Below are positions 67-29,303 of a stretch of 30,176 bases of DNA, in pieces. The DNA is from a virus. Both the position numbers and the translations under genes were made by a program. A model generated the notes under the pieces. It was given only the letters and a program-made list of their open reading frames with translations, was not told where the DNA came from and did no database searches. Within the stretch, counting starts at the first letter, position 1, and every line of letters begins with the position of its first letter. The stretch is taken from the IMG/VR virus record IMGVR_UViG_3300010392_003462, positions 1 to 30,176 of that record; one strand, given 5' to 3'.

Positions 67-267
67 ATGGCAAAAAACTATTTAAAACCTGGCGACCATG
101 TAAGCGTTACTAATGTTGATTTTGTTGTTGACGATAACGGAAGTGATTTAATAGAACCCAACCTCAACAAACGAAACATAGAATATTACAATTCAGATAC
201 CAGTGAATATTACCCTGTTTTATGGGACCAATCTTTTAAACCAGCTCGCATGTATTGGGAGGACTAA
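67..267 (+). CDS. Hypothetical small protein (66 aa)
   Basis: This 66-residue protein is not recognised. The start follows AAGGA at a good distance (AAGGAAAAATT before ATG). The N-terminal GDHVSV stretch resembles the opening of a small beta-barrel and recalls the GD-containing stretches of the products at 1694 and 5076, but this is only a visual likeness. The stop lies just before the next gene, whose ribosome site GGGAGGA overlaps the end of this frame, so the two are probably co-transcribed. Any promoter lies before the window or in the first 60 bases, where no sigma28-like site is visible. Confidence 0.6.
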   Translation: MAKNYLKPGDHVSVTNVDFVVDDNGSDLIEPNLNKRNIEYYNSDTSEYYPVLWDQSFKPARMYWED

Positions 268-271
268 AACC

Positions 272-454
272 ATGAGACAACTATCACCAGAAGAAAAAGC
301 CAAAATCGGCAAAGAATGGGCGGAAATTTTGCAACTCAAAGAAATTAAGCATTCTAATGGTATTAGTTATAGAACATCATATGGTGATAAAAGCGCTTTA
401 GGTGTTTATGAAACATTGAATAATTTAGTTTATTCTAGACATAACAAGGATTAA
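272..454 (+). CDS. Hypothetical small protein (60 aa)
   Basis: An unrecognised, soluble, charged protein beginning MRQLSPEEKAKIG. The ATG at 272 is chosen over an upstream in-frame ATG at 203 because GGGAGGA lies about 10 bases before it and the longer form would run deep into the preceding gene. It is followed at once by the first sigma28-type promoter at 458, so it is the last gene of its transcript unit. Confidence 0.6.
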   Translation: MRQLSPEEKAKIGKEWAEILQLKEIKHSNGISYRTSYGDKSALGVYETLNNLVYSRHNKD

Positions 455-457
455 TCC

Positions 458-484
458 TAAAGTTTTCGTTCCAGGGGCCGATAA
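458..484 (+). promoter_or_regulatory. Sigma28 (FliA)-type promoter, copy 1
   Basis: TAAAGTTT, 11 bases, GCCGATAA: a 16/16 match to the enterobacterial flagellar sigma factor consensus. An AGTA follows five bases beyond the -10 element at the expected transcription start. The upstream flank ATCC is shared with copies 7, 9 and 10. It drives the RadC-like gene at 520. Confidence 0.85.
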
Positions 485-519
485 TATAAGTAAGAAGACA
501 ACAAACCTGGAGCGAACAC

Positions 520-1023
520 ATGTTAAACACAGTCAGTACAAACAATTTTGTAAAGGATCATAACGGAAATTACAGCGTAACGAATGCCACACCTGAAGAA
601 CTGGTTTATCTAGCGTCTGAGATACTGTTAGAACGAATTAATAACAATGATGCAATGACAAGCCCTGATCTGGTTAGATCGTTCCTTAAAAAGCGCTTGG
701 CATTGCTTGGGCGTGAAGTATTCGCGGTTATGTTTCTTGATAACAAAAACCGCTTAATTTCGTTTGAGACACTGTTTGCGGGTACTTTTAACGCGGCAAG
801 CGTTCACCCAAGGGAAGTGGTTAAACGTGCGTTAGACCTAAATGCTGCGGCTGTGATCTTTGCTCACAATCACCCAACAGGGAATCCTGAGCCGAGTAGT
901 GCTGACAAAGCAATTACAAAGCGATTAACAGAAGTTTTAGACACAATCGACGTAAGAACATTGGATCATATTATTGCTGGCAAAGAAGGTACTTTTTCTT
1001 TTGCTGAAAAAGGATTAATTTAA
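520..1023 (+). CDS. radC: RadC-like JAB/MPN-domain protein
   Basis: This is a 167-residue member of the RadC-like JAB1/MPN metalloprotease-fold family. The metal-binding signature is present: Glu83 in the strand FETLF, His116 and His118 in HNHPTG (116-121), and Asp129 in SSADK. The N-terminal helix-hairpin-helix part of chromosomal RadC is absent, as is usual for the short forms on plasmids, phages and ICEs. The biochemical role of RadC is unsettled; mobile-element copies are often placed with anti-restriction genes. The start ATG has TGGAG 9 bases upstream. Sigma28 copy 1 lies 36 bases before the start and copy 2 begins one base after the stop, so this is a single-gene unit. Confidence 0.9.
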
Positions 1024-1024
1024 T

Positions 1025-1051
1025 TAAAGTTTTTGTAATCCAGGCCGATAA
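1025..1051 (+). promoter_or_regulatory. Sigma28 (FliA)-type promoter, copy 2
   Basis: TAAAGTTT, 11 bases, GCCGATAA: a 16/16 consensus match beginning two bases after the radC stop codon. GGTATAA follows at the expected start point. It drives the gene at 1087. Confidence 0.85.
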
Positions 1052-1086
1052 CATAGGTATAAATACTTACAAAGGGAATATAAAAA

Positions 1087-1371
1087 ATGGCTGAATATGA
1101 AATCAATGAAAGTTTGCTTCGACGATCAATAAAGGAAAACAAAGGAACAGTAAAATTTCCTTATACAGTCGCTAAAAAATTTATCTACAAAAATTCGTTT
1201 GGCTGTGATTATTTTAAATTTATTATTGTTTACGGCAAAAAAACCTTAACAATTGCTGAATCATGGAATGAAGGTTACAAGCGACGTTGCAATATACTTG
1301 GAAAAGTTCAAGTAACTGATAATGCGGAGGCATATATAAAAATCGCTGAATTAATCGAAAATATTGCCTAA
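1087..1371 (+). CDS. Hypothetical protein (94 aa)
   Basis: An unrecognised basic, soluble protein beginning MAEYEINESLLRRS, without membrane segments or obvious motifs. The start follows AAGGGA. Its stop codon TAA (1369-1371) is also the first three bases of the -35 element of the next sigma28-type promoter, so gene end and next promoter are fused. Confidence 0.65.
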   Translation: MAEYEINESLLRRSIKENKGTVKFPYTVAKKFIYKNSFGCDYFKFIIVYGKKTLTIAESWNEGYKRRCNILGKVQVTDNAEAYIKIAELIENIA

Positions 1372-1395
1372 AGTTTTCTGAAAAACCGCCGATAT
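1369..1395 (+). promoter_or_regulatory. Sigma28 (FliA)-type promoter, copy 3
   Basis: TAAAGTTT, 11 bases, GCCGATAT: 15/16 matches. The TAA of the -35 element is the stop codon of the preceding gene. It shares the spacer GAAAAACC with copy 4. AGTA follows at the start region. It drives the gene at 1425. Confidence 0.8.
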
Positions 1396-1424
1396 AGTTA
1401 GTAACAAACAACGGAGAAAATTAA

Positions 1425-1631
1425 ATGATTTTTGGTAAAACATGGGAAGAAATAAAAGATATTCAAAATAAAAATTATAAAGCAAAAACAGTTGATATGT
1501 CCACTGACGGAAGATCGCCAGCAAACCAAAAAGATATAGATTTATACAATATGCATGGTCTTGATGGATTAAAAAATCTCAAATTTTTTGGAGTTATTGA
1601 CAGGCTTGAATATTCAGGAATAACCAAATAA
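1425..1631 (+). CDS. Hypothetical small protein (68 aa)
   Basis: An unrecognised soluble protein beginning MIFGKTWEEIKD. CGGAG lies 9-10 bases before the ATG. It stands alone between sigma28 copies 3 and 4. Confidence 0.6.
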   Translation: MIFGKTWEEIKDIQNKNYKAKTVDMSTDGRSPANQKDIDLYNMHGLDGLKNLKFFGVIDRLEYSGITK

Positions 1632-1635
1632 ATAT

Positions 1636-1662
1636 TAAAGTTTCATGAAAAACCGCCGATAT
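1636..1662 (+). promoter_or_regulatory. Sigma28 (FliA)-type promoter, copy 4
   Basis: TAAAGTTT, 11 bases, GCCGATAT: 15/16 matches, followed by AGTATAC. It drives the pair at 1694 and 1971. Confidence 0.8.
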
Positions 1663-1693
1663 AAATAGTATACAAACTAGCTGGAGAAAAAAC

Positions 1694-1969
1694 ATGTCAA
1701 GCCATTGGGAATGGGAAAAAGAAACAATTATCGAACACAATGAAAATAAGCCCTTCGCGCCAGAAAACGGTGAGCCATTAAAATTTAATATTGGTGATAA
1801 CGTTATCTGTACAAATGATTATGGTGTTGAGTTCTCGTTAAAAGTAACAGGTTATTACAAACCTGAAAAAATTGATTCTTTATACGCGGTAGGATACCGA
1901 TATTTACTCGATTGGGATTGCTACTGGATGCCTGCGAGTGAAAAATCACTAAGATTGGATACAAAATAA
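1694..1969 (+). CDS. Hypothetical protein (91 aa), possible small beta-barrel
   Basis: An unrecognised acidic protein. Residues about 34-85 (FNIGDNVICTNDYG onward) look like a small SH3-like beta-barrel, judged only from alternating hydrophobic residues and the GDxV turn. A CTGGAG sits upstream of the ATG. The next gene begins one base after its stop, implying translational coupling. Confidence 0.6.
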   Translation: MSSHWEWEKETIIEHNENKPFAPENGEPLKFNIGDNVICTNDYGVEFSLKVTGYYKPEKIDSLYAVGYRYLLDWDCYWMPASEKSLRLDTK

Positions 1970-1970
1970 G

Positions 1971-2210
1971 ATGGGATATAAAACAGAAAAATACGCAATT
2001 GGTAAATTCGATGTAATTTCTACAGGTGCATATCCTAGCAGAATTGGCCACATATGCGGAGCCAAAACGACATGGCACGCCGAAAGTGGACATGTAGACC
2101 TTGGCTACCATAAAACCAAAAAGAAAGCGCTGGAGGCCATTGTCGCTGAATATGAGCGGCCACAGGCTGAAGCAAAAGAGATACCGCTAGCCAGTTTAAA
2201 ATTCAAATAA
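1971..2210 (+). CDS. Hypothetical small protein (79 aa)
   Basis: An unrecognised protein, with aromatic residues in the first half (MGYKTEKYAIGKFDV) and a charged helix after residue 50. It begins one base after the preceding stop and has no strong ribosome site of its own, so it probably depends on coupling. It ends shortly before sigma28 copy 5. Confidence 0.6.
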   Translation: MGYKTEKYAIGKFDVISTGAYPSRIGHICGAKTTWHAESGHVDLGYHKTKKKALEAIVAEYERPQAEAKEIPLASLKFK

Positions 2211-2214
2211 AAAT

Positions 2215-2241
2215 TAAAGTTTTCCTGAATTGGGACGATAT
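2215..2241 (+). promoter_or_regulatory. Sigma28 (FliA)-type promoter, copy 5
   Basis: TAAAGTTT, 11 bases, GACGATAT: 14/16 matches, with C to A at the second -10 position as in copy 12. AGTAT follows. It drives the PAPS-reductase-like gene at 2279. Confidence 0.75.
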
Positions 2242-2278
2242 ATTAAGTATCAATGAAACAAAAAAGGAATAATTAAAT

Positions 2279-3274
2279 ATGACAGCTAAGCCAAATTTAA
2301 CTACGGAACAGCAAGAACTCATAAAACTTGATTATGATAAATATCTGGTTATGTTTTCAGGTGGAAAGGATAGCCTTGCGTGCTTACTTCATTTAATCGA
2401 ATGCGGTGTTGATACAGATAAAATCGAATTATGGCACCATGATGTCGATGGCCGGGAAGGGTCCAACATGATGGATTGGCCAGTTACCAAAGCGTATTGC
2501 CAGGCAGTTGCTAAGGCGTTTAATGTGCCTATTTATTTCAGTTGGAAAAGCGGTGGTTTTGAAGGTGAGATGCTACGCGAAAATACCGCTACAGCGGTCA
2601 CCTATTTTGAAACACCAGACGGAATTGGGCAAAGTGGTGGTAAGGGTCCATTGAATACCCGGTTAAAATTTCCTCAAGTTTCAGCGGATTTGAAGGTGCG
2701 GTGGTGTTCTGCATACCTAAAGATTAGCGTTGCTAGTGCTGCCATATGTAACCAGGATCGATTAAACAATACCAGGACGCTTGTCGTCACAGGTGAGCGT
2801 GCTCAAGAGTCAACCGCTCGCAGTAAATACAGTGAATTTGAGCCACACAAGACAGACAGAAGATCCGGAAAATTAGCGCGACACGTTGACCAATGGCGCC
2901 CGGTTCATAAATGGCCAGAGGAAAAAGTTTGGGAAATTATAGAAAATCATAACGTAAACCCGCACCCAGCTTATAAATTGGGTTGGGGTAGATTGTCTTG
3001 TATGGCGTGCATATTTGGTTCTAAAAACCAATGGGCAAGCGTGAAAGCAATAGCGCCGAGTATCTTTAATACCATATCAGAATACGAGGAATTATTTGAC
3101 GTAACCATACAGCGCAAACATTCCATTAAGGAATTAGCAAACAATGGCACGGCTTATGATATGTGTAGCAATGAGTCAAGCCTGGCTATGTCAAAAACTT
3201 ATGATGATGCAATCATAACGGATAGCTGGACGTTGCCTAGCGGCGCATACGGTGAGTCTAACGGGCCACTTTAA
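2279..3274 (+). CDS. PAPS-reductase-family PP-loop enzyme
   Basis: This 331-residue protein belongs to the phosphoadenosine-phosphosulfate reductase/ATP-pyrophosphatase superfamily. The PP-loop SGGKDS is at residues 27-32 and a second conserved block TGERAQES at 171-178. Cys143 (RWCSAYLK) and Cys241/Cys244 (SCMAC) are placed as in members that hold an iron-sulfur cluster, such as DndC-like proteins and assimilatory APS reductases. Phage-borne homologues are common and of uncertain function. A role in sulfur-containing DNA or nucleotide modification is a possibility, but no DndD- or DndE-like partner is visible. A methyltransferase lies at 7913 in a different operon. AAGGA precedes the ATG. 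It is a single-gene unit with its own sigma28-type promoter. Confidence 0.85.
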   Translation: MTAKPNLTTEQQELIKLDYDKYLVMFSGGKDSLACLLHLIECGVDTDKIELWHHDVDGREGSNMMDWPVTKAYCQAVAKAFNVPIYFSWKSGGFEGEMLRENTATAVTYFETPDGIGQSGGKGPLNTRLKFPQVSADLKVRWCSAYLKISVASAAICNQDRLNNTRTLVVTGERAQESTARSKYSEFEPHKTDRRSGKLARHVDQWRPVHKWPEEKVWEIIENHNVNPHPAYKLGWGRLSCMACIFGSKNQWASVKAIAPSIFNTISEYEELFDVTIQRKHSIKELANNGTAYDMCSNESSLAMSKTYDDAIITDSWTLPSGAYGESNGPL

Positions 3275-3288
3275 TATTTAAATGAAAT

Positions 3289-3315
3289 TAAAGTATTAAA
3301 TTATTAGGCCGATAA
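3289..3315 (+). promoter_or_regulatory. Sigma28 (FliA)-type promoter, copy 6
   Basis: TAAAGTAT, 11 bases, GCCGATAA: 15/16 matches, followed by AGTATAC. It drives the gene at 3346. Confidence 0.8.
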
Positions 3316-3345
3316 CCTTAGTATACAAAAGAACTGGAGTAAATA

Positions 3346-3636
3346 ATGAATTTTGAAATAATCAAAAACAGCGATGATGTAAAAGATTTAAACGCCGAGC
3401 AATATGCAATGCTTGAATTGTTTATGGATATGAATCATTTTGATTTATGCGACAAGGTTTTCTTGTTTGAAACTATACATGGCCATATTGCTGAAATTGA
3501 AAAAAAGTCATTCAATAAATTATTGGCACATAAAACTGCTAGATTGGATCAAAACGATTTAAGGGTATTAGCCGCAATTTCTCAATTTACGCGGTGGATT
3601 GAAGTCACTCAAGGATCAATTATGATAGCATTTTAA
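3346..3636 (+). CDS. Hypothetical protein (96 aa)
   Basis: An unrecognised, mostly helical, acidic soluble protein beginning MNFEIIKNSDDVKDLN. CTGGAG stands before the ATG. Single-gene unit between sigma28 copies 6 and 7. Confidence 0.6.
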   Translation: MNFEIIKNSDDVKDLNAEQYAMLELFMDMNHFDLCDKVFLFETIHGHIAEIEKKSFNKLLAHKTARLDQNDLRVLAAISQFTRWIEVTQGSIMIAF

Positions 3637-3639
3637 TCC

Positions 3640-3666
3640 TAAAGTTTTTGGTTGGTAGGCCGATAT
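3640..3666 (+). promoter_or_regulatory. Sigma28 (FliA)-type promoter, copy 7
   Basis: TAAAGTTT, 11 bases, GCCGATAT: 15/16 matches, then GAGTATAAG. The whole element including the spacer is identical to copy 8 and differs from copy 10 only within the spacer, which points to recent duplication or gene conversion. It drives 3704 and 3907. Confidence 0.85.
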
Positions 3667-3703
3667 ATAGAGTATAAGACATTAATGTAGAGGGTTTAAA
3701 ACC

Positions 3704-3904
3704 ATGAAAAAATCCATAAAAGCAATATTAATTGACAGTATAATGTCAAAACTTAATGAAGTCTTGAGAGAGAGAAATAAAAAACTTTGTGCAAATAATT
3801 TGCATAGCGAACAAATACCGCTACACGGTAGTGATATGTTTTTTAAACTTGCTTTTTTGTCAGAAACAAAATTACATGAAATTGCAAAAGCGGCTGGATT
3901 ATAA
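3704..3904 (+). CDS. Hypothetical small protein (66 aa)
   Basis: An unrecognised basic helical protein beginning MKKSIKAILIDS. GAGGG lies upstream of the ATG. A second small gene begins two bases after its stop. Confidence 0.55.
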   Translation: MKKSIKAILIDSIMSKLNEVLRERNKKLCANNLHSEQIPLHGSDMFFKLAFLSETKLHEIAKAAGL

Positions 3905-3906
3905 TA

Positions 3907-4056
3907 ATGACAAATAATGAAAAACTGTTTTACATAGAACTAAAACGTCAATTTGGTAAAAAAGATGCGAGTATGTTTCTGTTATCACCAGAAAAGTATA
4001 AACACCATTTTGATGGTGAAACATTAAAAGCCTATGAAAATTTCTTAGCTAAATAA
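3907..4056 (+). CDS. Hypothetical small protein (49 aa)
   Basis: A 49-codon frame beginning MTNNEKLFYIELKRQFG and ending FLAK. It sits exactly between the stop of the 3704 gene (two-base gap) and sigma28 copy 8 (three-base gap). That fit and its sensible composition support it as a real coupled gene, despite its length and weak ribosome site. Confidence 0.5.
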   Translation: MTNNEKLFYIELKRQFGKKDASMFLLSPEKYKHHFDGETLKAYENFLAK

Positions 4057-4059
4057 AAT

Positions 4060-4086
4060 TAAAGTTTTTGGTTGGTAGGCCGATAT
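4060..4086 (+). promoter_or_regulatory. Sigma28 (FliA)-type promoter, copy 8
   Basis: TAAAGTTT, 11 bases, GCCGATAT: 15/16 matches, with AAGTATAAG at the start region. Core and spacer are the same as in copy 7. It drives 4124 and 4278. Confidence 0.85.
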
Positions 4087-4123
4087 TATAAGTATAAGAG
4101 AAAACAATTTGGAGTTAAATAAA

Positions 4124-4261
4124 ATGAAGCGTTTCAAAATAACATCTAATGGTTTTATTAAAGTAACAAGCGATGGTAAAACAATTAATACTTACTTTTA
4201 CCATAAAGGTGATGAATTGCATTTTATTAAGGCTGGATATACTGAAGTTTTCGATAACTAA
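4124..4261 (+). CDS. Hypothetical small protein (45 aa)
   Basis: A 45-codon frame beginning MKRFKITSNGFIKV and ending EVFDN. GGAG lies 9 bases before the ATG and the frame directly follows sigma28 copy 8. The next gene starts 16 bases after its stop. Function unknown; alternating polar and hydrophobic residues suggest beta strands. Confidence 0.5.
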   Translation: MKRFKITSNGFIKVTSDGKTINTYFYHKGDELHFIKAGYTEVFDN

Positions 4262-4277
4262 GTGGGAGTATTTAAAA

Positions 4278-4508
4278 ATGGCTATATATGCAATAAAAAG
4301 ATCAATCAATATTCACGGTGAATTCGATTTACTACAAGCATGGGACGAAAAATGGGGTACTAGTTGCGGTGGAGTTGATAAAAATAAAGCCTTGCACTTT
4401 TCAGAAAGCGAGATAGATGAAGCTGTAGAGCGCGCGAATACTGTTTGTGTCGGAATTAATGGATCATTAAAACCAGAGTGGATGAATTTCTCAAAAGTTG
4501 AAATTTAA
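4278..4508 (+). CDS. Hypothetical protein (76 aa)
   Basis: An unrecognised protein beginning MAIYAIKRSINIHG. The ATG at 4278 is chosen over an in-frame start at 4173, which would overlap the preceding small gene; GGGAG lies about 10 bases upstream. Second gene of the copy 8 unit. Confidence 0.6.
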   Translation: MAIYAIKRSINIHGEFDLLQAWDEKWGTSCGGVDKNKALHFSESEIDEAVERANTVCVGINGSLKPEWMNFSKVEI

Positions 4509-4520
4509 GTTGAATTATCC

Positions 4521-4547
4521 TAAAGTTTTTGGCCGGGAGGCCGATAA
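4521..4547 (+). promoter_or_regulatory. Sigma28 (FliA)-type promoter, copy 9
   Basis: TAAAGTTT, 11 bases, GCCGATAA: 16/16 matches. The downstream GGTGTAA differs from the usual AGTATAA. It drives the gene at 4582. Confidence 0.85.
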
Positions 4548-4581
4548 CTATGGTGTAAGTTAAATAATTTCGGAGATTAAA

Positions 4582-4761
4582 ATGGTTACTTTAAAAAAAG
4601 AAAATTGGGTAGTGGATAATAAAACTGGATTAATTGGCAAAGTTAGCAATGTTAGTAGTGATGGTTTTGATTGTGTTGTTGAATGGAATGACGGCAATAT
4701 ATCAAGCCGCAGCCTGGATGAAGTTGAATTGGCTTTATTGGAAGAAATTGTTAATAAATAA
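4582..4761 (+). CDS. Hypothetical small protein (59 aa), SH3/KOW-like
   Basis: A 59-codon frame beginning MVTLKKENWVVDN. CGGAG lies 8 bases before the ATG. The pattern of glycines and strands (TGLIGKVSNVSSDGF, then VVEWNDG) resembles a single small KOW/SH3-like barrel, which is inference from pattern only. Single-gene unit between sigma28 copies 9 and 10. Confidence 0.55.
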   Translation: MVTLKKENWVVDNKTGLIGKVSNVSSDGFDCVVEWNDGNISSRSLDEVELALLEEIVNK

Positions 4762-4765
4762 ATCC

Positions 4766-4792
4766 TAAAGTTTTTGGTTAAGAGGCCGATAT
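4766..4792 (+). promoter_or_regulatory. Sigma28 (FliA)-type promoter, copy 10
   Basis: TAAAGTTT, 11 bases, GCCGATAT: 15/16 matches, followed by GAGTATAAG exactly as in copy 7. It drives the gene at 4828. Confidence 0.85.
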
Positions 4793-4827
4793 ATAGAGTA
4801 TAAGCAAACACAAACGGAGAACATAAC

Positions 4828-5013
4828 ATGAAAAAAGCATTTGTTCATTGGTCACCTACATTGACATTTTACGTTGAACAATTGCCCGGTGAAGGTGGTG
4901 TTGACTGGGGTTATACGACTGATTTAAATAAAGCTAGGGATTTAAATCCATACTGGCAAAAAAGATTTAATTCTGACTGCAAATTTTGCGGAAGAAAAGC
5001 TAATTTTTACTAA
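4828..5013 (+). CDS. Hypothetical small protein (61 aa) with CxxC
   Basis: An unrecognised protein beginning MKKAFVHWSPTLTF, rich in aromatics, with a C-terminal CKFCGRK that could be half of a metal site. CGGAG precedes the ATG. Its stop codon (5011-5013) is the TAA of the -35 element of sigma28 copy 11, as in the gene at 1087. Confidence 0.6.
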   Translation: MKKAFVHWSPTLTFYVEQLPGEGGVDWGYTTDLNKARDLNPYWQKRFNSDCKFCGRKANFY

Positions 5014-5037
5014 AGTTTTTGGCTGAAAGGCCGATAA
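5011..5037 (+). promoter_or_regulatory. Sigma28 (FliA)-type promoter, copy 11
   Basis: TAAAGTTT, 11 bases, GCCGATAA: 16/16 matches, followed by AGTATAC. The -35 TAA doubles as the previous stop codon. It is the only visible promoter ahead of seven closely packed genes, 5076-7072. Confidence 0.85.
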
Positions 5038-5075
5038 CTATAGTATACAAGGAAACAAACTGGAGCAAAAGCAAA

Positions 5076-5345
5076 ATGAGAATTGAAACATCAAAAATCA
5101 AAAGATCAAATAACACCTACCTGCAAGGCATAGCCGCGTACGTTACAGGCACGCCAGCAAGCGAATTAAAAGCCGGTGACCATGTTGTGTGGAATGGTGG
5201 AACGTTGAATGAAGTTACAGCGGTTCATGATGTTTCAAAATGCTACGTTGTTATTGATGAAATTGAAAACGGCAAACAGTACTACGGTAGAAAGATCAAA
5301 AAAACCAGAATCATAGCGAGGCCCATTGAAGAAATACGAAAATGA
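5076..5345 (+). CDS. Hypothetical phage-type protein (89 aa)
   Basis: This protein begins MRIETSKIKRSNNTYLQG. The ATG at 5076 has CTGGAG upstream and lies after the promoter; the in-frame ATG at 5019 would lie inside the sigma28 site and is rejected. Residues about 30-85 (LKAGDHVVWNGGT onward, then rich in Lys/Arg) look like a small all-beta domain, similar in style to short phage proteins of unknown function. The stop overlaps the next start as ATGA. Confidence 0.6.
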   Translation: MRIETSKIKRSNNTYLQGIAAYVTGTPASELKAGDHVVWNGGTLNEVTAVHDVSKCYVVIDEIENGKQYYGRKIKKTRIIARPIEEIRK

Positions 5346-13630: not shown

Positions 13631-13657
13631 TAAAGGTTTTTTGGAAATGGACGATAT
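13631..13657 (+). promoter_or_regulatory. Sigma28 (FliA)-type promoter, copy 12
   Basis: TAAAGGTT, 11 bases, GACGATAT: 13/16 matches with the fixed spacing, and AGTAAG at the start region as in copies 1 and 13. It lies 88 bases before the first gene of the recombination operon and just upstream of a sigma70 promoter. Confidence 0.65.
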
Positions 13658-15046: not shown

Positions 15047-15955
15047 ATGTCAGCGAACGAAAAAGAAGTAGAAAATGAAATTCAATTAGTTGATCAACCG
15101 CCATCATCAAAAGGTATGGTTCCCGCTTTCGATAACATGGCAGCGTTTGAGAACGCACAACGTATGGCAAAAGCATTAGCTGCATCCGATTATGTTCCAA
15201 AAGCCTATCACAACAATGTGCCAAATATCTTAGTCGCGATGGATATGGCTTCGCGCACCGGGGCTGGCGTTTTAACAGTTATGCAAAATTTGGATGTGAT
15301 ACAAGGCAAACCAAGTTGGTCATCAAAATTTATTGCCGCAATCATAAATAATTGCGGACGTTATGACGGCGAGCTTCAATACGAGTGTGTATATGACGAT
15401 AAATTAGGTCATATGTCCTCTTGCTTGGCTTGGGCGATAAGTAAAGAAACAGGAAACCGTGTTGAGGGAGTAAAAATAACATGGGAAATGGCTGTAGCTG
15501 AAGGTTGGGTATCAAAATCTGGGTCAAAATGGAAAACCATGCCTGATTTGATGTTCAAGTATCGAGCCGCTTCATTTTTCGGAAAAATACACGTTTCTGA
15601 TAAGCTGCTGGGTATGCAAAGCCAAGAAGAAGCGTTTGAAATAATCGACGTAACACCAAACAAAGACGGTGATTTTGAAAAGCCAGTTAAAGGCGTTCAA
15701 GGAGTTAAGGATAAACTAAAACAGAACCTAACTGATAATAATGAAAGTAATCTTACTCACGAAAACATGACCGTTCAAGTGAATGGCGATCAAGTAAACG
15801 CTGAAACCGGAGAAATTATTGAACAAAATGTTCAAAGTAACCCTAAAGAAAAACAAAAAGGGGCCGATACAGTAAGTAAGAATACAAAAACACAAGCTCG
15901 ACAGGCTAAACGACCATTAAACCAACAGCAAAACGGACATCCTGACGAGTTTTAA
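15047..15955 (+). CDS. recT: RecT-family single-strand annealing protein
   Basis: A 302-residue RecT-family protein. The core (residues about 40-205) contains GAGVLTVMQNLDVIQGKPSWS, shown here by VMQNL and GKPSWSS, then GSKWKTMPDLMFKYRAASFF at about 157-176 and LLGMQS. It anneals complementary strands, pairing with the YqaJ exonuclease in Red-type recombination. The C-terminal 90 residues are polar and probably disordered (Lys/Gln/Asn-rich). A sigma28-like sequence (15844-15870) is embedded in that tail's coding sequence. AAGGAG precedes the ATG. Confidence 0.92.
   Translation: MSANEKEVENEIQLVDQPPSSKGMVPAFDNMAAFENAQRMAKALAASDYVPKAYHNNVPNILVAMDMASRTGAGVLTVMQNLDVIQGKPSWSSKFIAAIINNCGRYDGELQYECVYDDKLGHMSSCLAWAISKETGNRVEGVKITWEMAVAEGWVSKSGSKWKTMPDLMFKYRAASFFGKIHVSDKLLGMQSQEEAFEIIDVTPNKDGDFEKPVKGVQGVKDKLKQNLTDNNESNLTHENMTVQVNGDQVNAETGEIIEQNVQSNPKEKQKGADTVSKNTKTQARQAKRPLNQQQNGHPDEF
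15844..15870 (+). promoter_or_regulatory. Sigma28-like site inside recT, copy 13
   Basis: TAAAGAAA, 11 bases, GCCGATAC: 12/16 matches with correct spacing. The bases after it, AGTAAGTAAGA, are the same as those after copy 12 over the full stretch. It lies 157 bases before the next gene (16027) and could be an internal promoter for the ATPase part of the operon. Confidence 0.45.
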
Positions 15956-20539: not shown

Positions 20540-23500
20540 TTAATTAGCGTTAACACCGCCGCGTGTAGGATGAATTGCACCAATATGTGAACTTAAAATA
20601 GCATCAGCGTCACCAAACGTTACACCTTCAACTTGATTTTGAAACGAAAACAACCCTGATGGACCGTTTATGAACAGAACATCACCACCGGCACCAAATT
20701 CAATATGCTCTATACCAAATGCATTTACTCCACTAGCACCATTAACACCGTTAATCGTGTAAGGAGAGCCAGGCTTTTCGATTAGATTGCCGTTGCTTGG
20801 ATTGATATCGTAAACAGAAACAGAACGACCAATCTTATTCAGAACGTAAAAATATTTTTCATCATGGTCAACAGTTATTGAAACCGGGCGATTGCCTGGC
20901 GTTACAGTATCCTCAAGCAATAAGCTGCCATCACCATTGATTTTATATTTAATCAACGTGTTATCAACGGAGTACAAAACAAAAAGCGCTGTTCCTGCTT
21001 TATTAATATATAAATCTGTTGGTTGCCAACCGGTTACTTGAAAGCCAGGCATATATGTCAAACTACCATCAGGGTTTATTTTGATAACTGACACACGATC
21101 CCTTTCTGTTTCAGCAAAATATAAAAATGGGGAAACTGGATTTTGAGCCAACATACCAAATTTGCCATCAGGTATCACCGCCACCCCACCAACTTGCGTT
21201 AATGTTTTATCAGGATTGATAATGTAACTTCGTACTTCGGCTTGATCCGTGCCAATTTGCGCTCTGAATTTTGAGGTAAAAAGATAATTACCGTCATAGC
21301 TCATTAAATGATTGTGGTTAACGTTAGAATAAGACTCGTACGCAACATTATCAAAAGTAGTCATAGAACCATTGAATGGATGTAGGTCATAGCGTTTTTG
21401 ATTTGATGTGTATAGATAACTACCAGAGGTATGTATTGCTGCAATTTGGTCCGGGTTATTTTCAATAAACGTTATTGAGCCAGGGATATTTGGGTTATAC
21501 GATATAACGCCTGTGCCAGAAATATCACCTTTCAAATAGAGAAATCGTTTATTATCTATCTGTACATTTATTACTTGAGTTGAAACGGTACCTTTATAAT
21601 TGATTGCGCTGATCGTAAACGGGCAATTGCAATCCTCATACATTGTTGAATCAACAGAAAAGGAAGGGTTTGATAGGTCTGTGGCGGTAGCATAAACGGC
21701 ACCATTGATTAATAAATCAATATTGGTAACACCAATTATGTCTGTTACGTTCGCTGTAACATTAAACGTTCCATTATGGAAGGTTCCAGCGCCAGCAGAA
21801 AAGTTACTTATAATCGCCCCACCCTCATCAATAGGAATGATTGGTTCGTTACCAAACAAGTAATTAGTGGAGTTATTGAGCGTATCCGCCAGAGACAAAA
21901 CATTAACGGTTTTGAATGGTGTTTGGTTTCTTGGGCTTTCGGAAAATTGAATATAACCCAACGCACCAAGATGACGGTATGTGTTTGCTGTAATATCCGT
22001 ATTACCAAGAGTCAACCTTATTGAAGCGTCACCCACTCCATCCAGTAACCCATCAGTTTGGATATCTTGCACTGCTATTGACTTCAATGACAACGAATTA
22101 ACGCTTGTGTGTGGTATTTGTTCAAAGGCCACGCTAAGGTTATAACTAAGCTGAGAAAAAGAAGCCAATAAAAAACCATACCGGGTAGGCGCATCAAGCG
22201 TAAGGCCACCGCTAACAATTGTAATATCATTTGGTATCGTGGCCAAAATGTCAAAATTAAACAGAGTACCAATATCAAAATTCGCTATATTGATAGCGCT
22301 ACCAGGTTCCATTCCATTTTTAATATTAAAGTCAGTCAATCCTTTCGCTATACTAGTAACAGTATTTATATTGACGTACTTATTAAGGCCTGGCGAATGA
22401 TTAAGAACAGTATGAAATACATCAGCACTATTTAAAGCAAGATCAACTCCAGAAGCCCACTCGATAAAACGGCCACCGGTTAATTCAAATACAACAGGAC
22501 CGGAATGCTCAAACAAATCAATACTAAAAAAACCTTTTATATCGGTAGTGGTTCTCAATAATTCAGCACCATTAACACCTGCAGCGTAATCATAAATAAC
22601 AACATCGCCACCAGAGACAAAGGTATTACCTTGATATAATGTTGATGGGGTGTTGAATATCTCAACAGTTTGAGAGAACGTTTGATTAGTGTTTTCAAAA
22701 ATATCTGTTGCAGTGGCCGTAATAGTGTAGAAGTCGTCAGCAAACATCGTTGAAGAAAGTGTTACGCGATAAACGCCGTCTTCTGTGATTATGTAATCTA
22801 AAATAGTGCCGTCGATATCAAACACAATATCTTGCAGTCCATAATTAAATGTTAAATGAAAATCAATAAAGCCAGCACCAGTAATTCTAGCGTCGAAATC
22901 ATAATCACTGGTTACTGTGGGGATCTCATTAAAAATATTATCAACAACTCCAACAAACATGGGATCTACGGATTCTATGATAGATAACGCAACAGCCTTT
23001 AAGTCAATACCGGTTAACCCACTTTGATTTAAATCACTATTAATTACATCAAATAACGTTTGCGCGAATTCACCGCGATAAAAGAGCGAAGACATAACTT
23101 GCGCTCCAAAATAAATTTGCCCTTCATTTGAATCACCATTAAAAATACCTTCTTCTAAGTCAGCTTGTATTGTTTGAGAAAAAGACAACGTGTTATAAAC
23201 ATTATTATGCCCTGGTACACCGTTGTTGACCGCGATGGTATCCGTCATTTTTGATATAGCCGCAATTAAAAAACTAAAGGTATGCCCTTCTGTCAAAATT
23301 GCAGTTTTTAAATCAATATCGGTAATATCCAGTTCGGTGGTAAAAGGAATCGGAATAGTTAGCCAGGTAGAAACCCGCGCATTAGCAAGATGCACAGCGT
23401 CTAAAGGTGTTACCCCTTCATTGTTTATAAGATGTTTAGATAAGGCGTAAGCTAGATGAGAAAATACGCTTATGGAAAAACTTTGATCTTTCCCAGATAG

Positions 23501-23851
23501 GTAGCTACTAACAGCGCATAATGTGAACCCATTGTTTGCAGGAACAATGCTGTTGGTTGCAATTTCTGTGTAGGTTGCGTTATCCGTACAAACCAAAATA
23601 GGCGTGTCAGGGTTTTTGATAGATAGTTTCAACATTCCTTCTGGTTTATCTCCTTGAGCCAATAATTCACCTTTCAAACCACTAAACTCATAGACGGTTG
23701 TGGTGCCTGTAACCCTACCATGTATTGTTATTTCAGCTGTTGGTCTCACTTCAGGTATGGGTTGGTCATCAGTTGTTGTTGTATTTCCACCTTCATCGCC
23801 ACACCCTACTAAAATCAGGGTGAATAAACTCGCTATTAAATATTTATACAT
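20540..23851 (-). CDS. Large surface lipoprotein with C-terminal beta-propeller (1103 aa)
   Basis: A signal peptide ends in lipobox LVGC (Cys17); the +2 residue is Gly, consistent with outer-membrane sorting. Two related modules follow (about 36-300 and 403-660), each with a strand-rich start and a helical part with FLIAAISKM or FLLASFSQL. Each is followed by an Ig-like stretch (about 305-400 and 680-768). Residues about 770-1100 form a YVTN/lactonase-like beta-propeller: DHDEKYFYVLN, SVSVYDINPSNG and GSLTYMPG recur. AGAGGG precedes the ATG. Encoded next to an outer-membrane barrel at the end of a T4SS operon, it may act in mating-pair adhesion or surface recognition; that is inference. Confidence 0.75.
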   Translation of the reverse strand: MYKYLIASLFTLILVGCGDEGGNTTTTDDQPIPEVRPTAEITIHGRVTGTTTVYEFSGLKGELLAQGDKPEGMLKLSIKNPDTPILVCTDNATYTEIATNSIVPANNGFTLCAVSSYLSGKDQSFSISVFSHLAYALSKHLINNEGVTPLDAVHLANARVSTWLTIPIPFTTELDITDIDLKTAILTEGHTFSFLIAAISKMTDTIAVNNGVPGHNNVYNTLSFSQTIQADLEEGIFNGDSNEGQIYFGAQVMSSLFYRGEFAQTLFDVINSDLNQSGLTGIDLKAVALSIIESVDPMFVGVVDNIFNEIPTVTSDYDFDARITGAGFIDFHLTFNYGLQDIVFDIDGTILDYIITEDGVYRVTLSSTMFADDFYTITATATDIFENTNQTFSQTVEIFNTPSTLYQGNTFVSGGDVVIYDYAAGVNGAELLRTTTDIKGFFSIDLFEHSGPVVFELTGGRFIEWASGVDLALNSADVFHTVLNHSPGLNKYVNINTVTSIAKGLTDFNIKNGMEPGSAINIANFDIGTLFNFDILATIPNDITIVSGGLTLDAPTRYGFLLASFSQLSYNLSVAFEQIPHTSVNSLSLKSIAVQDIQTDGLLDGVGDASIRLTLGNTDITANTYRHLGALGYIQFSESPRNQTPFKTVNVLSLADTLNNSTNYLFGNEPIIPIDEGGAIISNFSAGAGTFHNGTFNVTANVTDIIGVTNIDLLINGAVYATATDLSNPSFSVDSTMYEDCNCPFTISAINYKGTVSTQVINVQIDNKRFLYLKGDISGTGVISYNPNIPGSITFIENNPDQIAAIHTSGSYLYTSNQKRYDLHPFNGSMTTFDNVAYESYSNVNHNHLMSYDGNYLFTSKFRAQIGTDQAEVRSYIINPDKTLTQVGGVAVIPDGKFGMLAQNPVSPFLYFAETERDRVSVIKINPDGSLTYMPGFQVTGWQPTDLYINKAGTALFVLYSVDNTLIKYKINGDGSLLLEDTVTPGNRPVSITVDHDEKYFYVLNKIGRSVSVYDINPSNGNLIEKPGSPYTINGVNGASGVNAFGIEHIEFGAGGDVLFINGPSGLFSFQNQVEGVTFGDADAILSSHIGAIHPTRGGVNAN

Positions 23852-23868
23852 AACTTACCCTCTTTAAA

Positions 23869-24444
23869 TTAAAATAATAATCCAGCGTTTAAAAACAAAC
23901 CTTGAACGCCGTCATTTATCGGAAAATCATAATTCAACCCAACCGTCCATTTAAACGACCTTTTACTACCGGCAACCAAAGTTGTGGATAGTCGAGCCAT
24001 ATAATCGTTGCGTTTTTCATCCTCATATTTTGCACCTAAATAATTTTCAGATTCATAGGTAAAACGATCAGAATATTTTAGGGAGTTAAAGCCAAAACCA
24101 CCACCGAACCAAAGTTTGTAATTTATAGCAAGCGGGTACTTATATATGTATTCAGCAAAAATACCGAAGCCCTTAACTTCTTGCCCGATGTTTTCTGTCG
24201 ATGCTTCATAAGAATCAGCATGATAATATGCATCAAAATTAATCGATGTTTTGCGCTGCAAGAAATAGTTAAACTTAAAGCCAGCTCTTGATAGGGATGT
24301 TGCGTTGTCAACGCTTCCATCAGGGTCTTTAAGGGTTGTGTTAGAAACCGCAAGATATGGACCCCATAAAAAATTAAACTCTCTTGCATGGGCATTTGTG
24401 GTCACCAAGAGACCCGTTAATAGTAAAAAAAATAATCTCGCCAT
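23869..24444 (-). CDS. Outer-membrane beta-barrel protein (191 aa)
   Basis: A signal peptide (MARLFFLLLTGLLVTTNAHA, cleavage after AHA) is followed by alternating strands rich in aromatics and a terminal Phe (GLLF), typical of small outer-membrane barrels. AAGGG lies 8 bases before the ATG. It ends 17 bases before the lipoprotein gene, so the two probably form a surface pair. A 90-base gap upstream separates it from the nuclease gene and may hold its own promoter. Confidence 0.75.
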   Translation of the reverse strand: MARLFFLLLTGLLVTTNAHAREFNFLWGPYLAVSNTTLKDPDGSVDNATSLSRAGFKFNYFLQRKTSINFDAYYHADSYEASTENIGQEVKGFGIFAEYIYKYPLAINYKLWFGGGFGFNSLKYSDRFTYESENYLGAKYEDEKRNDYMARLSTTLVAGSKRSFKWTVGLNYDFPINDGVQGLFLNAGLLF

Positions 24445-24534
24445 AGTTAAACCCTTTTAGTATTGTTTAAAAAAATCAATTAAGCATTCTAATGTATCCC
24501 AGTATGCGTACAACTGAACAATAAAGCAAGAGTT

Positions 24535-25050
24535 TTATCGGCATCCGTTACGTAACGAACAGGTATTGCATTTGCGTCTGTCTACAGGAAATATAGGTTT
24601 TATCAACTGTTTTGAGTTGCGAGCGCTTTCAATCTCATGGCTCACTTGATTGTATAAAATTCGATTATCTTTAGGAAGGGGAATTTCTTTGAATTGACCA
24701 CTGCGGTTATATACGAATAAAGTATTAATGCCAGGGTATTTATCACGCGCTGCTAAGGCGCCAACCTTACCTTGAACAATGTCAGATTGCTTAATACCTT
24801 TAACTCGACCTTTAAACTCAACTATAGCTAACCCGTTTAAATAAGTGAAAATAAAATCAGGCTTGGCGCTCACTCTATATTGTTTGTTTTTTAATAGCGG
24901 TGAACTACCATCATCAGAATAGATAATCAATTCATTTTTAAGTTTTTTAATTCTTATCTTTGAGGTGCTTGCACGCTTACTCCACGTATTAAGCGCGATA
25001 AAACATAATATTATTATAATAAAAAATATTAACTGACCAAAATCACTCAC
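24535..25050 (-). CDS. C-terminal half of a split Cas4-like nuclease, membrane-anchored
   Basis: A 171-residue protein starting with GTG in a GTGA overlap with the previous gene. An N-terminal transmembrane segment (about 6-22) is followed by a RecB/Cas4-like core: Asp65 (KPDFIF), Glu78 and Lys80 (VEFKGR), and a Q-rich helix (QSDIVQGKVGALAA, 88-101) corresponding to motif QxxxY. It ends with Cys161-x2-Cys164-x5-Cys170, the spacing of the C-terminal three cysteines of the Cas4 iron-sulfur cluster. The first cluster cysteine and the motif histidine are missing here and are found in the preceding gene. The active nuclease would need both proteins. Confidence 0.75.
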   Translation of the reverse strand: MSDFGQLIFFIIIILCFIALNTWSKRASTSKIRIKKLKNELIIYSDDGSSPLLKNKQYRVSAKPDFIFTYLNGLAIVEFKGRVKGIKQSDIVQGKVGALAARDKYPGINTLFVYNRSGQFKEIPLPKDNRILYNQVSHEIESARNSKQLIKPIFPVDRRKCNTCSLRNGCR

Positions 25051-25295
25051 TTGAAACCACCTAACAAAATAAAAGCAAAAATAGTGACTCCCAATACAGT
25101 CGCTACAATAGCTATTAAGAGCAAAGCATTTGGTTTTCCGTTTGTTTGCGCCTCATGGTGTAATGTTCCAACAGCCATATTTTTTTGTGACGCCGCGCTA
25201 TGCTTTACGCCTATCGCTCTTAAATAAACAGTGTTTGGACAAAAACTAACCTGCCCGGCTTCACTGGCATTTACCCATGGTTCGTTATTTTTCAT
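25047..25295 (-). CDS. N-terminal half of a split Cas4-like nuclease, membrane-anchored
   Basis: An 82-residue protein beginning MKNNEPWVNASEAGQ. Residues 8-48 resemble the N-terminus of Cas4/Dna2 nucleases: SEAGQVSFCPNTVYLRAIGV with Cys19, then GTLHHE (43-48) carrying the motif-I histidine. A transmembrane segment (57-80) ends the protein. Its stop overlaps the GTG of the next gene. Together the two supply four cysteines and the H-D-E-K set, with the two membrane helices adjacent where the chain is broken. It overlaps the previous gene by 11 bases. Confidence 0.7.
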   Translation of the reverse strand: MKNNEPWVNASEAGQVSFCPNTVYLRAIGVKHSAASQKNMAVGTLHHEAQTNGKPNALLLIAIVATVLGVTIFAFILLGGFK

Positions 25296-25650
25296 TTAAA
25301 TATGCCCTGAAAGACTCTTGAGAAACAGAACCACCAGTTGCAGAGGTACCGGCATAGCGCAACAACCTACGATAATAAGGGCGCCCTATTATTTTACCAC
25401 TAGCAAACGTAAACGCCGGGTTGTCGTCAGGAAAACTGTCTATTGCTTCATCTCGCGAAACACTGATTTCGTTCTGCATTGGTATTTCTTTTAATTCCTT
25501 AATGGTCATTTCAATAAGGTCGGTAATAGAATACCCAGCTGCAAGAAGGTACAAGATAACTCGCTGCCTGGATTCTTTTCGATGAAAGAATGGTTGTAAT
25601 CTTTCCCATGTCTTCTGGTCCAACGCATATTTTTGAATTTTGGTAGTCAA
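25285..25650 (-). CDS. Hypothetical protein (121 aa), possibly degenerate tyrosine-recombinase-like
   Basis: The stretch RQRVILYLLAAGYSITDLIE (about 28-47) resembles the helix of tyrosine recombinases that holds the first catalytic Arg (usual form GLRxSE), but here Arg is replaced (GYS). The end (GRPYYRRLLRYAG, then ESFRAYL) loosely recalls the recombinase C-terminus without the His and Tyr. It could be a DNA-binding remnant or be unrelated. It overlaps the VirB10-like gene by ATGA and the Cas4-like gene by 11 bases, so it is a fixed part of this operon. Confidence 0.45.
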   Translation of the reverse strand: MTTKIQKYALDQKTWERLQPFFHRKESRQRVILYLLAAGYSITDLIEMTIKELKEIPMQNEISVSRDEAIDSFPDDNPAFTFASGKIIGRPYYRRLLRYAGTSATGGSVSQESFRAYLNEK

Positions 25651-26555
25651 AATGTTTTTCCTATAATTATGGTGACTGGTTGAGGGTTCGCATAAATAAT
25701 AATGTTCGTATTATTCGCACGATCCAAGTGACTTTGTTTATCAGACAGCATGGCATTAGTGCTTTCGGATAATGCGGCACCAGCGATAGGATTTGAAACA
25801 ACCGCTTGTATCCCGACTCTACCCGCTGCAATCAACCCTTTATTTACCCCCCCTTGCAAAATTTCTTGATTCTTTTCTTTTACAATCCCCGTAACTCCAG
25901 CGACATTAGATTCATCCCGAATGTACCCGAATACTTCAAATTCAATTGATTCAGGTTTAGGTGTAATTCCATGAGAAACCTGTATTTCTATCCGTTTTGT
26001 GGCTCCATTTACCGCTTTATTTCCATAAACTAAAGTGCCTACAGGAAAAGACTTGTATTTACCTGTGATTGATTTGGTGATTTTAATCTCAACCTGGCCT
26101 GTTTCAGCAGATGAAAACGCTCTTGTTATCTCACCTTCAATTCGCGTACCAAGCGTTATACCAAATCGATTACGTTTCTTGCTGACTTGCTGATAAATCA
26201 CGTTTCCACCAATAGCGGCATTGTTATTTACCTTCTGTCTATAATCCGATGAAGTATTAAAATATTGCGTATTGGTTGTTTCTTTTGCTGGTGCAGAATA
26301 CTTATTGCTGTTAAAAGGTTTTTTGTCGATAACTGAAGGATCGTTAACCGGCGCAACAATTTTTGATTGTATTGGTTTAATCTTTTCTTTTTTCGGGTCT
26401 TTAAACCCATTCAGCTTATCACTATTAAGACGCTGTTGTTTGGCACGATCAGAATCATATATCGAATTTTGCATGTCAATAATTTCCTGAAGGGTAACGC
26501 TGAGCGCGTTACCTGAAAAGGTAACCAAACAAAAAAGACTGAAAAACTTTACCAT
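25647..26555 (-). CDS. virB10: VirB10-like T4SS protein
   Basis: A 302-residue protein. A signal-like hydrophobic start (MVKFFSLFCLVTFSG) is followed by a polar linker (about 30-130) and a VirB10/TrbI-type C-terminal domain: GTRIEGEITRAF, then YKSFPVGTLVYGNK, then RIEIQV (about 135-215). VirB10 spans the envelope as part of the outer-membrane core complex. Unlike classical VirB10, no cytoplasmic N-terminal tail precedes the hydrophobic segment, and it resembles a cleavable signal peptide. It overlaps the VirB9-like gene by 7 bases. Confidence 0.75.
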   Translation of the reverse strand: MVKFFSLFCLVTFSGNALSVTLQEIIDMQNSIYDSDRAKQQRLNSDKLNGFKDPKKEKIKPIQSKIVAPVNDPSVIDKKPFNSNKYSAPAKETTNTQYFNTSSDYRQKVNNNAAIGGNVIYQQVSKKRNRFGITLGTRIEGEITRAFSSAETGQVEIKITKSITGKYKSFPVGTLVYGNKAVNGATKRIEIQVSHGITPKPESIEFEVFGYIRDESNVAGVTGIVKEKNQEILQGGVNKGLIAAGRVGIQAVVSNPIAGAALSESTNAMLSDKQSHLDRANNTNIIIYANPQPVTIIIGKTF

Positions 26556-27475
26556 GTCAATTCCAGGTTTTTTGTATCAACTAATAAATTAAAATTATAT
26601 TCCGTATAACGTTTGCCAGAATAAACAAACAAACCTTTCACCGGTTTGCCAGGCTCAATACGACGAGCATAAGAAAATACACCTTCAATTTCGAAGGGCG
26701 ATATGCTTTCATCGTCAGGAGTGAATACTCGGGCTGAGTTGATTGTTACCCCTGTTTTGGCTCTATCATCAACAAAAACCATAAATGGGATGGCGGTGTA
26801 CTTTCCAGAAGAAATTAAATCTTCGACCAGTACCGTAACTTTATCGCCATTAGTCAACACAGCTGAAGTTTTCTCATTAACAGCGGAATACGTCAAACCG
26901 TTATTCATAATTTCAGATAATCTAACCAATGCCGCCTTATCAATGAACTTCTCGTTCTTTTTGATTTTTTCCAGGTAATCATCCTCAAGTTGCTTGGTGC
27001 GCTGCCTAACCAAATTTTGAATGATCTTTTCTTTTGATTCTTTACTGAGCGTAAAATTAAAATCTGAGTAGTGTTTATTACTTGATTTCACACCAATTAG
27101 TTCAATCGTAATTTCATGTCCTGCAATATTTAAAAACAAATTACCAATCTTTGGTGATAAAGATTCAAATGAACTTACCTTTTCAGGGTCAACAAAAACC
27201 ACAAAATGGTTGACGGAACCAAGACCCTCTTGCCCCATATCTGGGGCCGCTTTAAATAATGGGTTGGTGATTAATAATGAAAACGGAATATCATAATCGT
27301 TGTCATTTAAAATGTAAGGGAACGTGAACTTAACACCCATTCCAATTGGCACGTATACAGTTTTTTGCGTGAAAGTCTCAAGCGGAATATCATCAACTCT
27401 CGGTTTAGCAAAAACGCCAGGTGAAACAAAAACAAATAAAACCAATGCAATAAGTAATTTTTTAATTGTAATCAT
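26549..27475 (-). CDS. virB9: VirB9-like T4SS protein
   Basis: A 308-residue protein with a signal peptide (cleavage after VFA, about residue 23). Strand-rich N-terminal part (about 30-130), a charged helix (about 142-175) and a beta-rich C-terminal domain (about 200-308). By order between VirB8- and VirB10-like genes and by size it fits VirB9/TrbG, the periplasmic ring subunit. The similarity is by layout more than by motif. It overlaps the VirB8-like gene by 14 bases. Confidence 0.6.
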   Translation of the reverse strand: MITIKKLLIALVLFVFVSPGVFAKPRVDDIPLETFTQKTVYVPIGMGVKFTFPYILNDNDYDIPFSLLITNPLFKAAPDMGQEGLGSVNHFVVFVDPEKVSSFESLSPKIGNLFLNIAGHEITIELIGVKSSNKHYSDFNFTLSKESKEKIIQNLVRQRTKQLEDDYLEKIKKNEKFIDKAALVRLSEIMNNGLTYSAVNEKTSAVLTNGDKVTVLVEDLISSGKYTAIPFMVFVDDRAKTGVTINSARVFTPDDESISPFEIEGVFSYARRIEPGKPVKGLFVYSGKRYTEYNFNLLVDTKNLELTW

Positions 27476-28115
27476 AATAACGAACCTCTACTCCGTAAGT
27501 GTTAGAAACTGATCTTGGCGCCGTTACCAAACCAAGTGTTACATCAAAATTAATACGTTGTTCTGTGGCGCCGTTGACAATAAGAGTCCCTCTAACGTGA
27601 ACCCAGACGACACCATTATTATCAAGCGGTGTAGAGATATAAGGTTTGTCGTCGCCCTTCTTTAACTTAATTCGCGACCTCATACCGGCTTCCTCAAGTT
27701 CTTTGTACTCCGGTGTGGTTGCTACCCGCTCTAATTCAGCTTTGTATAACTCACTCCCTTCGTCGATCATAGAAAGCGCGCAATGCACGTCGCGCATAAT
27801 AGTGGCGCTGTTTCTGGACAACCGACAATCCAAAAAATGCAATCCGCCATGAATGTATTGCTTATCTGTTCGTTGTAGGTCATTAACAAAATCGATCTGA
27901 CCAACAATCTGGCCTTGTTCGTTCATAATCAAAACAGGTTGTAATGTACCTGTCTTCACTAAATGTACTGCGAATAAATAAACTAATAAAACGGAAAAAA
28001 AGACCCACCCCATCATACGAAGTCGATACAATTGCGCAAATACCCACCCCCTTGGCCCTTGTTTTTGCATAATCTGTTTTGCGTCAGCTTTCGTGTTTGC
28101 GTTAATAGTTTGCAT
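27462..28115 (-). CDS. virB8: VirB8-like T4SS inner-membrane protein
   Basis: A 217-residue protein. A cytoplasmic N-terminus of about 30 residues (MQTINANTKADAKQ) is followed by one transmembrane helix (about 35-52, WVFFSVLLVYLFAVHLV) and a periplasmic domain (about 55-217), the VirB8/TrbF/DotI layout. VirB8 assembles the inner-membrane part of the channel. It lies between the VirB6-like and VirB9-like genes in the classical order. Confidence 0.65.
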   Translation of the reverse strand: MQTINANTKADAKQIMQKQGPRGWVFAQLYRLRMMGWVFFSVLLVYLFAVHLVKTGTLQPVLIMNEQGQIVGQIDFVNDLQRTDKQYIHGGLHFLDCRLSRNSATIMRDVHCALSMIDEGSELYKAELERVATTPEYKELEEAGMRSRIKLKKGDDKPYISTPLDNNGVVWVHVRGTLIVNGATEQRINFDVTLGLVTAPRSVSNTYGVEVRYYDYN

Positions 28116-28139
28116 ATGCTCTCGCTTTAGTTAGTTAAT

Positions 28140-28403
28140 TTATAAAACATTAGTTTTTGTTAAATTCTTTTTGGTGATCTTTTTAAACAACAAGACAATC
28201 CCTGTAATTAACAAAATACCAATCGCAAGCAAACCAAAAAGAGCAATAAGCTGAGTGTTATTTATGGGAGGAAAGTTAGGGCCAGGAAGATCCTTGGATA
28301 CAATCGCCCCAAAAGAAACAGCGTAAAACAATTTACTTCTGAGTAACTTAAATACAATAAAAGAAAAGATTATCGCTAAAAATGCTTTTATATTAATTGT
28401 CAT
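28140..28403 (-). CDS. Small two-helix membrane protein (87 aa)
   Basis: Hydrophobic stretches at about 5-35 and 50-74 predict two membrane helices, with a basic C-terminus (KKITKKNLTKTN). It occupies the place of virB7 in classical operons but is not a lipoprotein. AAAAGG lies upstream of the ATG, in the end of the VirB6-like gene. Possible roles are an inner-membrane assembly factor or an entry-exclusion protein. Confidence 0.55.
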   Translation of the reverse strand: MTINIKAFLAIIFSFIVFKLLRSKLFYAVSFGAIVSKDLPGPNFPPINNTQLIALFGLLAIGILLITGIVLLFKKITKKNLTKTNVL

Positions 28404-28405
28404 TA

Positions 28406-29299: not shown

Positions 29300-29303
29300 C
29301 TAT

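Follow-up and report, generated by a model that had tools for sequence, protein, structure and literature searches.

Promoters of the sigma28/FliA type, with the consensus TAAAGTTT-N11-GCCGATAA, precede the late flagellar and chemotaxis genes of bacteria, and the usual view of mobile elements is that they rely on sigma70-type promoters or bring their own factors. What purpose, then, would be served by a row of sigma28-type sites in a block of small genes of a mobile element, and which sigma factor would read them? The sites in question are located in the IMG/VR virus record IMGVR_UViG_3300010392_003462, which is classed as linear and was analysed over its complete length of 30,176 bases (here referred to as the window); the window represents a fragment of the element. 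A first-pass annotation had described eleven intergenic sites of this kind with invariant spacing and had assigned them to the FliA promoter class.

Sequence and spacing of the sites

A pattern scan of the window identified eleven sites on the plus strand between positions 458 and 5037 that fit TAAAGTTT-N11-GCCGATAW. Compared with the GCCGATAA form, four of them are exact (458, 1025, 4521 and 5011), six contain one mismatch (1369, 1636, 3289, 3640, 4060 and 4766) and the site at 2215 contains two, so that all coordinates and mismatch counts of the first-pass annotation were reproduced. With up to three mismatches allowed, 14 matches were obtained in the window compared with a mean of 0.73 and a maximum of 3 in dinucleotide shuffles, and the reversed control pattern gave no match in the window. 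Since both the shuffles and the reversed pattern remained far below the observed count, a chance origin of the array was rejected; the eleven-site array is real and far above chance. The invariance of the spacing was likewise borne out by a spacing scan of the window, in which TAAAG-N16-CGATA occurred 13 times on the plus strand and never on the minus strand, with 0-1 occurrences at any other spacing.

Two of these 13 matches lie outside the array, one in front of the YqaJ/RecT genes at 13631 and one, intragenic, at 15844. The former is a probable outlier member of the array:

13631..13657, plus strand: weaker sigma28-like site, three mismatches to the GCCGATAA form, followed by AGTAAGTAAG; the YqaJ/RecT block begins with its first gene about 61 bp further on

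The match at 15844-15870 is located inside the 3′ end of recT, has AGTAAGTAAG downstream as at 13631, and is possibly an intragenic promoter or a chance occurrence.

Placement of the sites and predicted transcription units

Intergenic DNA makes up 14% of the region 67-5345 and contains all eleven sites. Exactly one site was found in each of the 11 gaps longer than 16 bp between positions 268 and 5075, and none in the four shorter gaps. In all eleven cases the site is co-directional with the following gene and ends 29-38 bp 5′ of an ATG with a Shine-Dalgarno sequence. The intergenic position noted earlier thus applies to 11 of 11 sites, two of which share the TAA stop codon of the preceding gene (3-base overlap). 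From this placement and orientation we infer that the sites are used as promoters, and the presence of one site per gap longer than 16 bp would give eleven transcription units in the block, each with one or two genes. The candidate promoters and the two array genes with family assignments are:

458..484, plus strand: candidate promoter 1, sigma28-type, 16/16, before radC
520..1023, plus strand: RadC-like JAB-domain protein, 167 aa (PF04002, E 9.7e-45)
1025..1051, plus strand: candidate promoter 2, sigma28-type, 16/16, before the 94-aa orphan gene 1087-1371
1369..1395, plus strand: candidate promoter 3, sigma28-type, 15/16, before the 68-aa orphan gene 1425-1631; overlaps the upstream stop codon
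1636..1662, plus strand: candidate promoter 4, sigma28-type, 15/16, before the orphan genes 1694-1969 and 1971-2210
2215..2241, plus strand: candidate promoter 5, sigma28-type, 14/16, before the PAPS-reductase-like gene
2279..3274, plus strand: PAPS-reductase-like protein, 331 aa (PF01507, E 4.5e-10; phage family phrog_424, E 8.7e-36)
3289..3315, plus strand: candidate promoter 6, sigma28-type, 15/16, before the 96-aa orphan gene 3346-3636
3640..3666, plus strand: candidate promoter 7, sigma28-type, 15/16, before the orphan genes 3704-3904 and 3907-4056
4060..4086, plus strand: candidate promoter 8, sigma28-type, 15/16, before the orphan genes 4124-4261 and 4278-4508
4521..4547, plus strand: candidate promoter 9, sigma28-type, 16/16, before the 59-aa orphan gene 4582-4761
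4766..4792, plus strand: candidate promoter 10, sigma28-type, 15/16, before the 61-aa orphan gene 4828-5013
5011..5037, plus strand: candidate promoter 11, sigma28-type, 16/16, before the gene 5076-5345; overlaps the upstream stop codon

The unit of candidate promoter 11 possibly extends through closely spaced genes to about position 7072. Gene layout together with Pfam and phage-family matches agreed with the earlier description of the genes behind the sites as small and phage- or plasmid-type, including radC and the PAPS-reductase-like gene. The product of the latter has 53% identity to a PAPS-reductase-like protein of Pseudoalteromonas phage KB12-38, and family searches with the small array proteins returned no convincing family.

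Conservation within and around the sites

Mean pairwise identity among the eleven sites was 0.94 over the 16 sigma28 bases and 0.75 over bases 32-38 (AGTATAA), the predicted transcription start, in which G33 and T34 are invariant. Elsewhere it was 0.40 in the spacer, 0.36 upstream, 0.34 over bases 28-31 and 0.38 beyond base 38, compared with 0.27 expected from composition alone. The AGTATAA-like heptamer extends the motif beyond its earlier description. Some spacers are common to several sites, those at 3640 and 4060 being identical, and the eleven sites are therefore not all independent.

Comparison of the array proteins with each other revealed no similarity. Duplication of whole gene-plus-promoter units was rejected, since the genes are non-homologous and the promoter bases alone were kept. 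That one conserved element separates each of these non-homologous genes would also be expected if the repeats marked the ends of exchangeable cassettes of genes or bound proteins for recombination or packaging. However, the conserved bases are those of the FliA consensus at FliA spacing, they all point the same way and lie as far from start codons as promoters do, and conservation does not extend to the remainder of the intergenic regions, which makes a role as borders or binding sites very improbable.

Comparison with known FliA promoters

In enterobacterial class 3 promoters, FliA recognizes a -35 element TAAAGTTT and a -10 element GCCGATAA separated by 11 bases, and the window sites match 14-16 of these 16 bases. 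When Escherichia coli K-12 loci were subjected to the same scan and promoters were assigned to genes by position, tar scored 16/16, flgM 15/16, motA, fliC and fliD 14/16 and flgK 13/16. The window sites are thus about as good as E. coli flagellar promoters or better. Together with the fixed spacing and the promoter distance to the ATG, this is consistent with the first-pass assignment to the sigma28/FliA promoter type. Two differences were observed. Enterobacterial FliA promoters head flagellar genes, whereas the window sites form a dense array, one per unit, in front of accessory genes that belong to a mobile element; and the AGTATAA box at the predicted start, common to the window sites, has no counterpart in the FliA promoters of E. 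coli.

The mobile element

The other genes of the window encode a ParB-methyltransferase, a small-terminase-like protein, a replication initiator, a repressor, a YqaJ nuclease, RecT and an SbcC-like ATPase. At 20540-30174, seven genes are collinear with a module of the Candidatus Tenderia electrophaga plasmid CP013100, in which the seven homologues occur in the same order. One homologue in this plasmid resembles TrbI/VirB10 below the curated cut-off, and a Pfam search of the window for VirB/Trb-type transfer genes gave no direct match. The structure of the VirB8-like protein, predicted from a single sequence, reached a pLDDT of 44, too low for use; comparison of the VirB8- and VirB10-like proteins with solved structures returned nothing meaningful, and no relatives of the VirB10-like protein were found among viral contigs. 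The combination of phage-type replication and recombination genes with a plasmid-type, secretion-like module supported the mobile-element context proposed earlier and makes the element look like a phage/plasmid hybrid, which may be conjugative. A second metagenomic fragment was nearly identical to the window across the region that it covers.

Two further genes of this part were recorded. A Cas4-like RecB-family nuclease gene (24535-25050, below the curated cut-off) lies inside the secretion-like module, and the product of the gene at 20540-23851 is a predicted lipoprotein of 1103 aa that contains an Ig-like stretch, matches a beta-propeller at its C terminus and has a relative in the Tenderia plasmid.

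Occurrence of the sites in relatives and in other viral contigs

Relatives of RecT and RadC (92 loci, 1.3 Mb) and of the PAPS reductase (7 loci) contained no site at up to two mismatches, and neither did phage KB12-38; the array is therefore special to this element. The Tenderia plasmid, unlike the window with its array, contains no sigma28-type site at up to two mismatches in 106.9 kb. Searches of genome contigs with the strict array motif gave no match, and with RecT only two metagenome-assembled matches (Geobacter and Verrucomicrobia), neither with a good site. The promoter sequence gave one meaningless match among named phages.

Many other viral contigs, by contrast, carried clusters. Exact matches to the plain consensus were present in at least 119 viral stretches, compared with 31 for the reversed pattern. 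Two or more sites were present in 40 of the 116 loci analysed and the control pattern yielded no such locus; the 31 loci selected with the control pattern had a single weak forward match. Whole viral records confirmed the clusters, with up to 26 sites in a 153 kb record (G004) and few or no control matches. Sigma28-type sites are thus not unique to the window and are often clustered in other viral contigs, which were selected for carrying a site; among the cases surveyed here, the window is the densest.

The genes behind these viral sites encode proteins with a median length of 92 aa, and inspection of the 40 longest by eye recognised no flagellin. In five contigs (L130, L139, L154, L186 and L189) exact sites precede rIIA-like genes of large phages. 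No good sigma28 site was found in the whole genome of phage Paride, the rIIA of which is related to that of L154, and rIIA therefore does not bring the promoter along. In seven contigs (L118, L142, L145, L181, L191, L192 and L219) composite promoters were seen, in which the sigma28 spacer contains TTGACA and a TATAAT-like hexamer follows 17-18 bases later, so that the site fits sigma28 as well as sigma70; L011 and L012, read by eye, are also of this form.

Candidate sigma factors

A search for sigma70-family genes in the window gave no match. Since no sigma factor is encoded in the window, FliA of the host is the likeliest supplier. Including the window, 23 virus records were tested; a FliA-family match was obtained in one, G004, and was sub-threshold. 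In view of this result and of the clusters of sites before phage genes, supply of sigma28 by the host is the simplest general reading for the viral contigs, which were chosen because they carry a site.

The element could also carry a gene for a sigma28-like factor of its own beyond the window, in which case the array would form a private regulon independent of host motility. Such a factor would fit with the AGTATAA box as an additional constraint that the flagellar promoters of E. coli do not show, with the incompleteness of the window, and with a 365-aa protein encoded by the array-bearing G004 (L110:1273-2370) that has a sub-threshold match to sigma70 region 2. Against this, the window contains no sigma-family match, and none of the 21 other site-bearing virus records tested, which may be fragments, has a FliA-family match; we therefore regard an element-borne factor as unlikely. 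Supply by host FliA is in turn weakened by two observations, namely that the AGTATAA box is not explained by FliA alone and that the Tenderia plasmid is free of sites despite the common secretion module.

Plain sigma70 promoters were rejected, since the first 14.5 kb contained 34 sigma70-like matches compared with 50.5 in shuffles and no sigma70 -35/-10 pair in register was found at the eleven sites. The promoters might instead be dual, either with sigma28 superimposed on a sigma70 promoter that uses TATAA at bases 34-39 as its -10 element, or as sigma70-type promoters with an element-borne activator bound to TAAAGTTT/GCCGATAW. Several other viral contigs have TTGACA in the spacer, with a TATAAT-like hexamer following after 17 bases (at about 34-39), and the conserved TATAA of the window lies in register with that hexamer. 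However, a -35 element in register is present at 0 of the 11 window sites, the -10-like hexamer never ends in T there, and the sigma70-like matches of the region stay below the shuffled level, so that dual promoters appear less probable still than an element-borne factor.

Proposed mode of expression

We consider it probable, with considerable reserve, that the eleven transcription units are read by a sigma28-type holoenzyme, likely with host FliA, as a motility-linked regulon. The hybrid element would carry a block of accessory genes in which nearly every unit would be preceded by a strong sigma28-type promoter of its own. RNA polymerase with a sigma28-family factor, most likely host FliA, would bind TAAAGTTT and GCCGATAW and start transcription about 5-7 bases past GCCGATAW at the conserved AGTATAA box, where the start is predicted because this box sits at the expected distance from the -10 element. 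The resulting leaders would be about 25-32 bases long and contain a Shine-Dalgarno sequence. FliA becomes free when the flagellar hook is finished and FlgM is exported. The block may therefore be expressed as one regulon in hosts with free FliA, that is, in the flagellated, dispersing state, and the repressor and replication genes would stand outside sigma28 control.

Several described systems share individual traits with the window. The gene flxA in the Qin prophage of E. coli K-12 has a binding site for the FliA holoenzyme and is a known RpoF target (PMC5493296). It resembles the present case as a mobile-element gene with a FliA site and is a published precedent for a FliA-bound prophage gene, but it is a single gene in a defunct prophage, compared with eleven units here. 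In attack-phase Bdellovibrio bacteriovorus, FliA is a wide regulator with TTAAG-N16-CCGATA before many non-flagellar genes (PMC3627812); the spacing is that of the window sites, but the regulon is chromosomal and not located on a mobile element. Leading-region anti-defence islands consist of small accessory genes in one orientation with repeated Frpo single-strand promoters (PMC11541004) and in this respect resemble the window, although Frpo promoters are sigma70-like and lie in large DNA hairpins, and the window sites have no sigma70 pair in register. In the open literature, covered incompletely and mainly by titles and abstracts, we found no account of phages or plasmids with arrays of sigma28 promoters, and due to this coverage the novelty is provisional. 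The array is best filed as a known promoter type in a new setting.

Beyond this element, it is conceivable, and put forward tentatively, that so far undescribed phages and phage-plasmid hybrids have adopted the motility sigma factor of their hosts for whole accessory or early regulons, the genes of which would then be expressed in flagellated, dispersing cells. If true, some viruses and plasmids would sense the swimming state of the host and time their accessory genes by it. Sigma28 sites may moreover provide a clue to the hosts of uncultured viruses, and the array gives grounds for adding such sites to viral annotation.
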